Assembly: GCF_002261345.1 (NCBI RefSeq)
Contig: NZ_NEVT01000002.1
Span: forward strand, 124,001 to 188,000
Reading direction: 5' to 3'
Origin: Bordetella genomosp. 2
GTDB lineage: Bacteria; Pseudomonadota; Gammaproteobacteria; Burkholderiales; Burkholderiaceae_B
DNA length: 64,000 nt
Under the pieces are notes generated by a model. The model was not told the origin of the DNA. It searched no databases and saw nothing but the letters and a program-made list of their open reading frames with translations. The first letter of the stretch is position 1. Each line of letters opens with the position of its first letter. This document shows, in pieces, positions 15,160-59,300 of this stretch. A program made the translations under genes and the position numbers.

Positions 15160-16059
15160 ATGACATCGAGCGCGACGCGCGACACCATCGGATTCATCGG
15201 ACTGGGCGTGATGGGACGGGGCATGGCCGCCTCGCTGCTGCGCGCCGGGCATGACGTGGTCGTGCACAACCGCAGCCGCGCAGCCGAAACGCCGTTGGCG
15301 GCGGCGGGCGCGCGCCGGGCGGTCACGCCGGCCGAGCTGGGCGGCATGGCGCGCGTGGTGATGCTGTGCCTGTCGGATACGGCGGCCGTCGAGTCCGTGC
15401 TGTTCGGCCCGCAGGGCCTGGCCGCCAGCCTGCCGGCCGGCGCGTTCGTGATCGACACCAGCACCATCTCGGCATCCGCCACACGCGAGCACGCCCGGCG
15501 CCTGGCCGAACGCCAGGTGGCGCTGCTGGATGCGCCCGTCAGCGGCGGCCAGCAGGCGGCCGAGCAGGGCACGCTGAGCTGCATGGTGGGCGCTTCGGAA
15601 GCCGCGTTCGCGGCGTGCCTGCCCTATCTGCAAGCGATTGCGTCGCGCGTGCTGCGCGTCGGCGACAACGGCGCGGGACAAGTCGCCAAGGCCTGCAACC
15701 AGGTCGCCGTCAGCGCCGTCATGCTGGGCGTGGCGGAAGCGTTCGCGCTGGCGCGCAGCAGCGGCGTCGACCCGGCGGTCGTGCGCGAGGCGCTGCTGGG
15801 CGGCGCCGCGCGCAGCGCCGTGCTGGAGAAGAACGCCGTGCGCATCCTGCAGCGCGACTTCAAGCCGGGTTTTCGCGCCGGCCTGATGCGCAAAGACCTG
15901 CGCCTGGCCCTGGATGCCGCGCGCGACGCCGGCGCCTGCCTGCCGGTCGCATCGACCACGCTGCAGTGGCTGGAAGCCTTGTGCAATACCGGCCACGCCG
16001 AAGATGACTGGAGCGCGGTGGGACAGCTGATCGCGGAGATGGCCGCGCCGCCCCGGTAG
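15160..16059 (+). CDS. NAD(P)-dependent beta-hydroxyacid dehydrogenase (3-hydroxyisobutyrate dehydrogenase family)
   Basis: A 299-residue two-domain oxidoreductase. I-G-F-I-G-L-G-V-M-G-R-G (residues 8-19) is the Rossmann G-x-G-x-x-G fused to the family signature G-x-M-G. A later D-A-P-V-S-G-G segment is substrate binding, and K-A-C-N-Q-V within G-Q-V-A-K carries the catalytic Lys. The family includes 3-hydroxyisobutyrate, tartronate-semialdehyde and related dehydrogenases. An AGAGGAA site lies 8 bases before the ATG. The gene lies 69 bases after the Bug receptor in the same orientation, so the imported ligand is probably its substrate or precursor. The specific substrate cannot be read from the sequence. 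The 145-bp tandem repeat begins 40 bases after its stop. Confidence 0.85.
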   Translation: MTSSATRDTIGFIGLGVMGRGMAASLLRAGHDVVVHNRSRAAETPLAAAGARRAVTPAELGGMARVVMLCLSDTAAVESVLFGPQGLAASLPAGAFVIDTSTISASATREHARRLAERQVALLDAPVSGGQQAAEQGTLSCMVGASEAAFAACLPYLQAIASRVLRVGDNGAGQVAKACNQVAVSAVMLGVAEAFALARSSGVDPAVVREALLGGAARSAVLEKNAVRILQRDFKPGFRAGLMRKDLRLALDAARDAGACLPVASTTLQWLEALCNTGHAEDDWSAVGQLIAEMAAPPR

Positions 16060-16100
16060 ACGATGAACCCGGCGAGGGGGGGCAGACACACCATGCCGCA

Positions 16101-16613
16101 AGGTGTCTGACACCCCATGAGATGGCCTTTCCATGCAGCGGGCATTGCGTGGGGTGTCAGACACCTGACGCAGGGAGATACGTGACGCCGATAGGCCGCC
16201 AGGGCGGTGGCTCTGTTTCACTGATAGACGCACGGCGCCCGTGCAGGGTGTCTGACACCCCATGAGACGGCCTTCCCATGCAGCGGGCATTGCATGGGGT
16301 GTCAGACACCTGACGCAGGGAGATACGTGACGCGGATAGGCCGCCAGGGCGGTGGCTCCGTTTCACCGATAGACGCGCGGCGCCCGTGCAAGGTGTCTGA
16401 CACCCCATGAGATGGCCTTTCCATGCAGCGGGCATTGCGTGGGGTGTCAGACACCTGACGCAGGGGGATACGTGACGCGGATAGGCCGCCAGGGCGGTGG
16501 CTCTGTTTCACCGATAGACGCACGGCGCCCGTGCAAGGTGTCCGACACCCCATGAGATGGCCTTCCCATGCAGCGGGCATTGCGTGGGGTGTCGGACACC
16601 TGACGCAGGGAGA
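16101..16613. repeat. Tandem array of 145-bp units with palindromic arms (3.5 copies)
   Basis: Four copies begin with the 13-mer GGTGTC(T/C)GACACC at 16102, 16247, 16392 and 16537, exactly 145 bases apart; the last is partial. In each unit, AGGTGTCTGACACCCCA and its exact reverse complement TGGGGTGTCAGACACCT flank a 32-base loop, and each arm is itself a palindrome around one central base. In copy 4 the central T of the left arm is C and the paired A of the right arm is G, so pairing is kept. The spacer part of the unit resembles bases 16711-16757, the 3' end of the adjacent gene, read in the same orientation. The array fills the space between two convergent genes and codes for nothing recognisable. 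Confidence 0.9.
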
Positions 16614-16684
16614 CAGCTGAGGCGGGAGCCTCTGGGCCGGCACTCGCACGGGATACCGGGCGCCCGCGCGCACTGCGCGGCGTT

Positions 16685-17608
16685 TCAGATCAGGTCCGCG
16701 ACCTGGCTGGCGTAGACCGCCAGGGCGGTGACGCCGTTCCACCAATAGACGCGCGCCACCTGGACGCGCCGCGCGATTTCCAGGGCCTGGCCCATGTCGC
16801 TTTCGATGAAGTGCGTGTGCCGCCCGGCGACGATGGCCAGCGCCTTGTGCTCGGCCGTCTGCGCCGCGCTGTGGCGACCGGCGTCGCGCATTACCAGCGG
16901 GCCGAGGAAGCCGTGGCGATGCAGCCAGTCCTGCGTGCGGGCGCGGTCTTGCTCCGGCCGCCCGGTGATGATGGTCAGCCGGCTCAGGTCGCGGCCCGGC
17001 AGGATCGCGCTGGGCGTCAACCGGTCGCGCCGCGCCAGCGTGTCGGCCAGGTCGACCGCATAGGCATCGGCGGGCAGGTCGGGCAGCAGGATGCCGTCCA
17101 GGTCGATCGCCCATGAGGCATAGGCGTGCGCCGGCAGGTCGGGCAGATTGCCGGTGGCGTCGTAGGCGGTGGTGATGGACTCGCGCTCCCAGGGAAACCA
17201 GGCGCGGAAGCCGGGCGGGATCTCGACCCCGAAATCCGGCCGCACGCGCGACTCGGCATCGTAGGCCAGGGTGAAGACGCTGAAGGCGTGGCCGCGCGCG
17301 GCCAGGAACTCGAGGCTGTCCGACAGCGTGGTGCCGCGCCCGGCGATGTCCTCGACCACCAGCACGCGCGCGCCGTGTGGCGGCGTCTGGGCGGTGAACC
17401 AGGAGACGCGCCGCGCCCGCCGGTCGTACGAGAGCGCATACAGGGGCAGGTCGAGCGCCGCGCTGGCGATCAGGGCCGGCGCCAGGCCGCCCCGCGCAAT
17501 GGCGACCACGCCGGCGAAACCCATCGAGCGCCAGGTGGGCACGTGCCCGGCGACGACCTGCTCGACCCGGGCATAGTCATAGGGGAAAGCGCTGGGCGAT
17601 GTAGCCAT
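16685..17608 (-). CDS. Phosphoribosyltransferase-HAD phosphatase fusion
   Basis: A 307-residue two-domain protein. Residues about 10-145 form a type I phosphoribosyltransferase: A-I-A-R-G-G (36-41) and the PRPP loop V-V-E-D-I-A-G-R-G-T-T-L (84-95). Residues about 160-300 form a HAD domain: D-L-D-G (169-172, motif I), I-T-G-R-P-E-Q (214-220, motif II) and E-S-D (269-271, motif IV acidic pair). PRTases transfer ribose phosphate to bases, and HAD domains hydrolyse phosphates, so a two-step nucleotide-type reaction is plausible. The motif II style resembles polynucleotide-kinase-like phosphatases. The pairing is uncommon, and the substrate is unknown. The last 15 or so codons are echoed in the adjacent tandem repeats. 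Confidence 0.8.
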   Translation of the reverse strand: MATSPSAFPYDYARVEQVVAGHVPTWRSMGFAGVVAIARGGLAPALIASAALDLPLYALSYDRRARRVSWFTAQTPPHGARVLVVEDIAGRGTTLSDSLEFLAARGHAFSVFTLAYDAESRVRPDFGVEIPPGFRAWFPWERESITTAYDATGNLPDLPAHAYASWAIDLDGILLPDLPADAYAVDLADTLARRDRLTPSAILPGRDLSRLTIITGRPEQDRARTQDWLHRHGFLGPLVMRDAGRHSAAQTAEHKALAIVAGRHTHFIESDMGQALEIARRVQVARVYWWNGVTALAVYASQVADLI

Positions 17609-37707: not shown

Positions 37708-37830
37708 GGTTGTGGCTGGCATCCAGCTAACAAGGTGTCAGACACCTGGGGTGTCTGACACCTGCGGAGGCATGGTTGCGCTTGGCATTCAGCTAACAAG
37801 GTGTCAGACACCCGGGGTGTCTGACACCTG
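37708..37830. repeat. Two 66-bp direct repeats with GGTGTCAGACACC hairpins
   Basis: The unit beginning GGTTGTGGCTGGCAT at 37708 recurs 66 bases later at 37774 with small differences. Each carries a perfect 14-bp hairpin, AGGTGTCAGACACC, a 3-base loop (TGG or CGG), then GGTGTCTGACACCT, at 37733-37763 and 37799-37829. The 13-mer is the same palindrome as in the 16.1-kb array. No T-run follows, and no coding potential is seen. Confidence 0.85.
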
Positions 37831-37915: not shown

Positions 37916-37950
37916 AAAAAAAAGCGCCAGGCACTGGGTGCCTGGCGCTG
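37916..37950 (-). terminator. Intrinsic terminator of tctBA
   Basis: On the minus strand a perfect 12-bp stem (AGCGCCAGGCAC with GTGCCTGGCGCT, 3-base loop) is followed by nine T residues. It lies 49 bases after the tctA stop and is a textbook Rho-independent terminator for tctBA. Confidence 0.9.
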
Positions 37951-55686: not shown

Positions 55687-56658
55687 GTGAACACCGACAC
55701 GATCAGGGTTGCCCTGCTGGACGATTACCACGGCGTGGCCGAGCGCTACGCCGACTGGACCACCCTGGGCCCGCGCGCCCGGGTGCAGACGTTCCGCGAC
55801 TACCTGCCCGAAGCCGAGCGGGCGCGCGCGCTGCAGCCCTTCGAGGTCATCGTGGCCATGCGCGAGCGCACGCCGTTCCCGGCGCACCTGATCGAGTCCC
55901 TGCCCAACCTGCGGCTGCTGGTCACCACCGGCATGCGCAACTTGGCCATCGACATGGACGCCTGCTCGCGCCGCGGCATCGTGGTGTGCGGCGCGCCGGG
56001 CAGCGCCGATGCCAACACCGCCACCGCCGAACTGGCCTGGGCGCACATCCTGGCGCTGTTCAAGAACTTGACGGTCGAAGACGCCAACATGCGCCGCGGC
56101 CTGTGGCAAACCGGCATGCCGCGGCCGCTGGCCGGCAAATGCCTGGGCGTGGTGGGCCTGGGCAAGCTGGGCACGGCGGTGGCGCAGGTGGGCAAGGCAT
56201 TCGGCATGGAGGTCCTGGCCTGGAGCCCCAACCTCACGCCCGAGCGCGCCGCGCAGGCCGGCGTGGCCTATGCGGCCAAGCACGATCTGTTCGCCAATGC
56301 CGACGTCGTCAGCGTGCACCTGATCCTCAGCGAACGCACCCGCCAGGTGGTGGACGCGGCGGCGCTGGCCGCCATGAAGCCCACGGCTTTCCTGGTGAAC
56401 ACTTCGCGCGCCGGGCTGGTCGACCAGGACGCCCTGCTCGACGCCCTGCGCAAGGGACGCCTGGCGGGCGCCGGCCTGGATGTGTTCCCCGAAGAACCGC
56501 TGCCGCCCACCGACACGCTGCGGGCGCTGGACAATGTCGTACTGACGCCGCACCTGGGCTACGTCAGCCCCGAGAACTTCACCGCTTTCTACCGCAACGC
56601 CCTGCAGGCCGTCAGCGGCTGGATGGCCGGCCAGCCGGTGCGCGTGCTGAACCCGTAG
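55687..56658 (+). CDS. D-2-hydroxyacid dehydrogenase
   Basis: A 323-residue NAD-dependent D-isomer 2-hydroxyacid dehydrogenase (GTG start, GGAGA 6-8 bases before). V-V-G-L-G-K-L-G (about 157-164) is the nucleotide loop. N-T-S-R-A-G-L-V-D (catalytic Arg region), D-V-F-P-E-E-P-L (Glu) and T-P-H-L-G-Y-V-S (catalytic His) are all present. Closest relatives include glycerate/phosphoglycerate-type dehydrogenases, so the substrate is open. Convergent with ttcA, with the hairpin repeats in the gap between them. Confidence 0.85.
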   Translation: MNTDTIRVALLDDYHGVAERYADWTTLGPRARVQTFRDYLPEAERARALQPFEVIVAMRERTPFPAHLIESLPNLRLLVTTGMRNLAIDMDACSRRGIVVCGAPGSADANTATAELAWAHILALFKNLTVEDANMRRGLWQTGMPRPLAGKCLGVVGLGKLGTAVAQVGKAFGMEVLAWSPNLTPERAAQAGVAYAAKHDLFANADVVSVHLILSERTRQVVDAAALAAMKPTAFLVNTSRAGLVDQDALLDALRKGRLAGAGLDVFPEEPLPPTDTLRALDNVVLTPHLGYVSPENFTAFYRNALQAVSGWMAGQPVRVLNP

Positions 56659-56678: not shown

Positions 56679-56765
56679 AGGTGTCAGACACCCTGCGGGT
56701 GTCTGACACCATGCAACACCCGCGCCTTCACTGCCAGGTGTCAGACACCTGGCGTGTCTGACACC
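56679..56765. repeat. Two GGTGTC(A/T)GACACC hairpins
   Basis: AGGTGTCAGACACC-CTGCG-GGTGTCTGACACC (56679-56710) and GTGTCAGACACC-TGGC-GTGTCTGACACC (56738-56765) are two near-identical palindrome hairpins, about 58 bases apart, between convergent genes. They are the same family as the repeats at 16.1, 37.7 and 59.2 kb. Confidence 0.85.
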
Positions 56766-59156: not shown

Positions 59157-59234
59157 CCGGGCCGGCCAGCCGGCATCCAGGCCATCCAGGCATATCCCGG
59201 GGTATATCCCGGCGTCTGGCACCCCATCGTATCC

Positions 59235-59300
59235 AGGTGTCTGACACCCCATGAGACGGCCGCCACTGCACGGGACGCCTCCGCGGGGTGTCAGACACCT
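59235..59300. repeat. GGTGTC(T/A)GACACC inverted pair
   Basis: AGGTGTCTGACACCCC (59235-59250) and its exact reverse complement GGGGTGTCAGACACCT (59285-59300) flank a 34-base loop beginning ATGAGACGGCC, the same loop start as in the 16.1-kb array. It lies between convergent genes. It is one single-copy version of the array unit's palindromic part. Confidence 0.85.

Follow-up and report, generated by a model that had tools for sequence, protein, structure and literature searches.

In Pseudomonas fluorescens SBW25, REPINs occur in ordered clusters 'including the flanking sequences' (Bertels and Rainey 2011, PMC3116915), and compensatory changes, like the tandem clustering of REPINs together with flanking DNA, are already on record for Pseudomonas (PMC3116915). 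TIRtrons and TIRYTs, as described by Di Nocera et al. (2013, PMC3733652), comprise RAYT-type genes with long inverted repeats on either side that are in part self-complementary; some of these repeats make up dispersed families that include dimers and clusters. The bordetellae are listed there among the species with untagged REP-like repeats, and the link of such repeat classes to specific proteins is left open (PMC3733652). In the classification of the TnpAREP/RAYT proteins by Quentin et al. (2018, PMC6006769), subclass 2.1 takes in 20 of the 26 published TIRYTs, which carry inverted repeats at their flanks, and this subclass (group 1) is described by the motifs NHVH, W[EQ] and YIELNP and a C-terminal extension.

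Here, we examine an array of palindromic units in a 64 000-nucleotide stretch of Bordetella genomosp. 2 DNA, the whole of which is referred to as the window. The array is probably a tandem cluster of REPIN-like elements that arose by local duplication of one element together with the tail of a neighbouring gene and by subsequent amplification.

Structure of the array and source of its spacers

Two convergent genes enclose the array, which sits between their 3' ends and consists of four 66-bp hairpin elements and three 79-bp spacers (Table 1). The exact 145-base step between palindromic units, noted in an earlier sequence-only reading of this DNA, was confirmed for the four units by the repeat search (spacing 145/145) and by TRF (16098-16613, period 145, 3.6 copies, 94 % matches, 0 % indels), and the tandem amplification proposed there is likewise supported. 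Units have the layout AGGTGTC-N-GACACCCC...GGGGTGTC-N-GACACCT, unit 2 beginning with G; both arms of a unit are odd palindromes, and arm also pairs with arm. Exact inverted arms had been ascribed to every unit, and units 1 and 3 do have them (17 nt), but in unit 2 the G that replaces the first A leaves a G:T outer pair, and unit 4 has C and G at the arm centres instead of T and A, a double change that keeps the pair, as had been noted and as the alignment confirmed. What had been taken for a 32-base loop is partly paired in units 1, 3 and 4, where the repeat search found 27-nt arms that are 85 % complementary with 12 nt between them. Folded as single-stranded DNA, the four units reach -24 to -27 kcal/mol (z = -6.0 to -7.9), and for each of them none of 200 shuffles was equally stable. 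In the 145-bp register, units 1-3 differ from one another at 3-8 positions; unit 4 differs from these at 3-5 of the first 78 positions and has other sequence beyond, the likeness to the spacers covering approximately the first 24 nt to its right before divergence sets in.

Table 1. Features of the array, its neighbours and the other family members in the window (positions counted from the first nucleotide of the window)
Feature	Position	Strand	Basis or remark
REPIN-like 66-bp inverted doublet, unit 1	16101..16166		Arms 16101-16117 / 16150-16166; repeats and fold
Spacer 1, 79 bp	16167..16245		About 24 nt of element flank and gene-tail-like block 16192-16234
Unit 2, outer base A to G	16246..16311		Fold and alignment
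Spacer 2, nearest to gene tail	16312..16390		88 % over 43 nt
Unit 3	16391..16456		Repeats and fold
Spacer 3	16457..16535		Similarity to gene tail and flank
Unit 4, C and G centres for T and A	16536..16601		Repeats, fold, alignment
Flank of last unit	16602..16626		19-20/25 identical to first 25 nt of each spacer
PRT gene 3' coding end resembling spacers	16713..16755	-	Alignment
Neighbour gene with phosphoribosyltransferase domain (PF00156)	16685..17608	-	Pfam; start codon from ORF translation
Neighbour gene, 3-hydroxyisobutyrate-dehydrogenase-like (PF03446, PF14833)	15160..16059	+	Pfam; convergent with PRT gene
Two 31-bp short doublets, family palindrome, 66 bp apart	37733..37829		Pattern search; first one folded
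Two short doublets, one arm with mismatch	56679..56765		Beyond end of + strand ORF 55687-56658
Single 66-bp element, array type, without spacer copy	59235..59300		Pattern search, fold, spacer search

The sequence-only reading had also reported that the spacer of every unit resembles bases 16711-16757, the tail of a neighbouring gene that it named PRTase-HAD. The phosphoribosyltransferase (PRT) part of that name has a Pfam match but the HAD part has none. Among 17 named loci recovered with the PRT protein, the four nearest come from Bordetella and the remainder from other genera or unnamed bins, in keeping with an assignment of the genus to Bordetella. The resemblance itself is genuine, though there are three spacers for four units: spacer positions 26-68 align with the last codons of the PRT gene over 43 nt at 81-88 % identity, the scores (46-61) lying far above the shuffle maximum of 32-34 (500 dinucleotide shuffles each), and the closest spacer matches the gene tail with E = 4.5e-9 when the window's genome is searched. 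The first 25 positions of the spacers resemble the bases beside unit 4, and each spacer reads as 24-25 nt of unit-4 flank joined to the gene tail, with the 86 bp between them absent.

The differences between spacers and gene tail hit codon positions 1, 2 and 3 and include an in-frame stop, indicating that the spacer copy has drifted as non-coding DNA; a divergent orthologue of the gene is, for the same reasons, an unlikely source. Seven of these differences are common to all three spacers, which are 95-96 % identical to one another, and hence the duplication appears to be older than the amplification. When the genome was searched with one spacer, the three spacers and the gene tail were recovered and nothing else (40 of 55 candidates scored), which makes a local duplication simpler than capture by a moving element. 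The claim that a mobile element 'captured a gene tail' is therefore not supported as it stood: a local duplication with loss of 86 bp fits the sequences better, and nothing in them suggests that the spacer ever travelled with the element.

A dispersed palindrome family and a RAYT gene among its copies

The palindrome GGTGTCNGACACC is found, when one mismatch is allowed, 18 times in the window (0.07 expected; at most 1 in 100 shuffles), at three places besides the array. Near main-family copies, at 37924-37934 and 59211-59223, the window also contains related but different palindrome-like sequences, GCGCCAGGCAC and GGCGTCTGGCACC, which are perhaps older or sister repeats. The whole genome has 366 GGTGTCNGACACC sites and none of the reversed-pattern control. 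A sample of 60 stretches (1 161 210 bases, 23 % of the genome) includes 186 perfect copies; neighbouring copies are most often 18 or 51-52 bp apart, and oriented inverted doublets of approximately 33 or 66 bp account for 146 of these arms. The array is thus one cluster of a large dispersed hairpin family.

Tandem arrays are a habit of this family. TRF found 21 arrays with a period of at least 55 in the sample, of which 16 hold at least two palindromes. For the 40 of the 60 stretches that were used for a count in contiguous contigs, the figure is 8 of 11 arrays, the window's own among the eight, compared to a mean of 0.14 and a maximum of 3 in 5000 draws of random placement. The non-palindromic part has a match elsewhere in its own 20-kb stretch in just one of the 16 sampled arrays, namely that in the window; copying of gene tails as a general habit of the arrays was not borne out.

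The window's genome contains a single match to PF01797 (Y1, IS200-like transposase), above the Pfam cut-off. The same protein matches the NCBIfam model REP_Tyr_transpos (REP-associated tyrosine transposase, RAYT) with E 8e-22, its 77.7 bits lying just under the cut-off of 80, and both HuH and Y---NP are present in its translation. Searching by sequence for solved structures returned none at E 0.001. The gene is surrounded by seven short doublets (14 palindromes) in a span of 1.15 kb. Two direct copies of a 172-bp sequence, 99 % identical to each other, bracket it at positions 1098-1269 and 2155-2326 of its locus (L051, G000:C8); each comprises two doublets and the 3'-terminal 64 bp of an outer-membrane-efflux-type gene (PF02321). 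Direct repeats also bracket the RAYT genes of G008 (72 nt, 100 %), G005 (128 nt, 93 %) and G003 (67 nt, 61-82 %); none of 60 bp or more brackets that of G001. Beside the G005 gene, a two-arm palindrome unit is repeated six times at 117-bp spacing (L048, 483-1367).

A RAYT gene was found in six of the nine genomes of the genus, and four of the five relatives' RAYTs exceed the NCBIfam cut-off, the fifth being a piece of a frame with a stop. Each of the six genes is flanked on both sides by palindromes that recur in the same genome, though in G006 (L049, G006:C4) those on one side are more than 300 bp away. The flanking variants differ. In G001, GTGTCCGGCAC surrounds the gene and GTGTCCGGCACC has 74 genome copies versus 1-11 in the eight other genomes. 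The arms in G005 are of GTGCCTGACAC type, and this genome has 77 copies of GGTGCCTGACACC versus 12 of the window type; GGTGCCTGACACC is not exclusive to it (153 in G003, 249 in G008, 122 in G004). Elements of CGGTGTCTGACACCCTGCGGGAGTCAGACACC type accompany the genes of G003 and G008, and their 16-mers are among the most abundant in the samples of both genomes, the G003 sample having been chosen around hits. The dominant G003 element has a different second arm that the search pattern misses.

Counts of GGTGTCNGACACC-type palindromes vary widely in the genus, from 691 in G008, 567 in G006, 366 in the window's genome (G000), 206 in G003 and 144 in G004 to 48 in G001, 12 in G005 and none in G002 and G007. 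One genome from another genus of the family, G097, has 36 copies, compared to at most five in the other out-of-genus genomes searched. Both genus genomes that have no palindromes are also without a PF01797 match. However, G004 has no match either, and the RAYT frame of G006 contains an internal stop; hence, the repeats seem to survive where no working RAYT is left. The association between palindromes and RAYT across the nine genomes is suggestive, not proven. The mobile palindromic element of the sequence-only reading is supported in kind by the dispersed sites and by a RAYT amid the same doublets, but no movement was seen.

Pairing between the arms and the proposed origin of the array

Within an arm, only the central base can change and leave the arm's own palindrome intact, which makes it a fair test of pairing between arms. 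The T-A to C-G change in unit 4 is one event. In the genome sample, counting one doublet per cluster by dropping any that lay 400 bp or less from the previous one (long doublets reduced from 45 to 28 and short ones from 28 to 17, with unit 4 among those dropped), the arm centres were complementary in 27/28 long doublets (p 2.9e-6) and in 17/17 short doublets (p 0.0074). Among 19 independent 66-bp elements, the centres are T-A in 14, A-T in five and discordant in none. In the window's genome, 102 of 117 unoriented neighbouring pairs have matching centres; agreement is weaker elsewhere, with 10/24 in G003, 24/43 in G006, 7/9 in G004 and 4/6 in G008; the few oriented doublets available outside the window's genome have complementary centres in four of six. 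A whole-structure test on the 19 elements (one per array, 51-bp arm spacing only) did not go beyond shuffles (covariation 50/500, paired cells 92/500, other measures 286-422/500), since there is hardly any variation in the arms and pairing in the inner stem is poor. The earlier proposal that the pairing is under selection or maintained by conversion finds support in the arm centres of the sampled genome, which match far above chance, but the array itself contributes one double change; covariation of the arms, which had been suggested as a check, extends to the centres but not to the inner stem of the 66-bp elements. Template switching within a hairpin can correct one arm from the other. Either such hairpin-templated correction or selection for a foldable substrate would do to keep the matching arm-centre bases.

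Taken in order, the proposed events are as follows. Inverted doublets of the short palindrome would first have dispersed across the genome, most probably through the action of the RAYT, a HuH tyrosine transposase, on a single-stranded hairpin, and one such element would have landed in the gap between the convergent genes. Element, flank and the neighbouring gene's 3' end could then have been duplicated locally, losing 86 bp, to give the 145-bp direct repeat, from which unequal recombination or replication slippage may have generated four elements and three spacers.

One alternative is that the RAYT itself made the copy in a one-ended reaction, by cutting at the palindrome and at an arbitrary site in the gene tail, and that the copied 'gene tail + palindrome' then seeded the array. 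The repeat that brackets the RAYT gene, which includes the end of the efflux-type gene, offers a second case, and both there and in the array the copied block goes from the 3' end of a gene into a palindrome. However, the single match among 16 arrays counts against it, and ordinary tandem duplication explains the same layout; we therefore consider one-ended copying improbable. We are equally doubtful that the array is a block of transcription terminators or mRNA-stabilizing hairpins that is maintained by selection, though its position between two convergent 3' ends and its very stable folding would be in keeping with such a function. A scan restricted to loops of 3-8 found no terminator-like site at the 66-bp hairpins, where an intrinsic terminator is thus rejected, and only two weak 5-pair sites, both inside spacers. 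Moreover, the array is absent from the six loci that carry an orthologue of the PRT gene in other genomes of the genus. At none of these does the window's palindrome lie 3' of the gene (1.5-kb flanks on each side), though in G001 a pair of hairpins of that genome's own type starts approximately 70 bp downstream and, in G003 and G008, palindromes lie 5' of the gene. At one genome per species, no lineage other than this one was seen to have the array.

As short elements of 66 bp with inverted repeats, the units also look like MITEs and could belong to an ordinary insertion sequence of another kind, the neighbourhood of the RAYT being coincidental. Since the RAYT is surrounded by palindromes in all six genomes, and since the form next to it is, in G001 at least, the one enriched in that genome, there is little chance that this is so. 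Palindromic repeats at regular spacing further bring to mind a CRISPR-like or other regularly spaced repeat system; here the near-identity of the spacers, which are not diverse, refutes the comparison and, together with the hundreds of dispersed sites, leaves it practically no probability. Local duplication of a REPIN-like element with a gene tail, followed by amplification, is thus the reading that we retain.

Relationship to known repeat systems

Three features of REPINs are found in this family: two inverted copies of a short repeat lie in one hairpin, copies are numerous, dispersed and mostly in doublets, and a RAYT gene lies amid the same repeats. The classical REP tag, GTAG or GTGG at 0-2 nt 5' of the hairpin, is seen in only three of 73 oriented doublets (outer ends only). 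The element is, therefore, REPIN-like with a RAYT, but without the classical GTAG/GTGG tag. Compared to the SBW25 REPINs as reported (PMC3116915), the array has another sequence, arms that are odd palindromes and no tag, and compared to the clusters described there, its spacer derives from a neighbouring gene.

The open-access literature searched yielded no instance of the window's literal palindrome. Judged by title and start of abstract, papers there on Bordetella petrii palindromes hold nothing on this repeat; the only match for RAYT with Bordetella concerns, by its title, reverse transcriptases; Bordetella with tyrosine transposase and palindromic repeats leads to PMC3733652 only, and Bor repeats in Bordetella to PMC1590033 only. 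The 10 Rfam matches are all to microRNA models, far under the gathering scores, and were taken as chance.

Among the repeats already described in Bordetella, the Bor repeats (Petrillo et al. 2006, PMC1590033) are likewise short palindromic stem-loops, abundant near coding regions and likened to the REPs of E. coli, and the Bor-1 family (Cozzuto et al. 2008, PMC2267715) also consists of short palindromic stem-loop repeats, classed as intergenic. Set beside the window element by description rather than by consensus, neither is linked to a transposase in the passages that describe them (PMC1590033, PMC2267715). The Beta-proteobacterial repeat element, BRE (Hot et al. 2011, PMC3110155), is a dispersed Bordetella repeat that is often in tandem and behaves as a VNTR between species and strains; with a length of approximately 90 bp, copies that adjoin or nearly adjoin one another and a copy number of 8-22 per Bordetella genome, it differs from the window element, again by description only.

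The nearest published counterparts are the TIRtron/TIRYT repeats, together with the Bordetella repeats that PMC3733652 lists as untagged. The main text of that paper mentions Bordetella only in the list of untagged repeats and names no Bordetella TIRYT. The TIR motif GGGGWSAS given there is, by eye, absent from the arms in the window, and the TIR families are called 'moderately abundant' (PMC3733652) as against the site count of the window palindrome. The motifs of subclass 2.1 (PMC6006769) are all present in the RAYT of the window's genome as NHVH, WE and YIELNP and point to a putative assignment to this subclass. However, that RAYT has 199 aa versus a subclass median of 238, and genes of the subclass are reported to have no REP-like sequences nearby (PMC6006769), whereas here doublets surround the gene.

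It is conceivable, though we hold it only tentatively, that the untagged Bordetella palindromes form a separate REP superfamily whose partner RAYT has subclass 2.1/group 1 motifs, that hairpin and transposase have changed together across species without a GTRG guide, and that the same enzyme copies 'gene tail + hairpin' and so seeds arrays. The link between RAYT and repeats that is visible in six genomes bears on whether a particular DNA- or RNA-binding protein goes with untagged repeats, the question that PMC3733652 leaves open, and permits a direct test of RAYT specificity in the absence of that guide. The array also illustrates that a gene-adjacent repeat can accompany duplication of the end of that gene. 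As REPINs, RAYTs and tandem clusters are already known in general kind, the array mainly adds a further example to a known sort of miniature mobile DNA.
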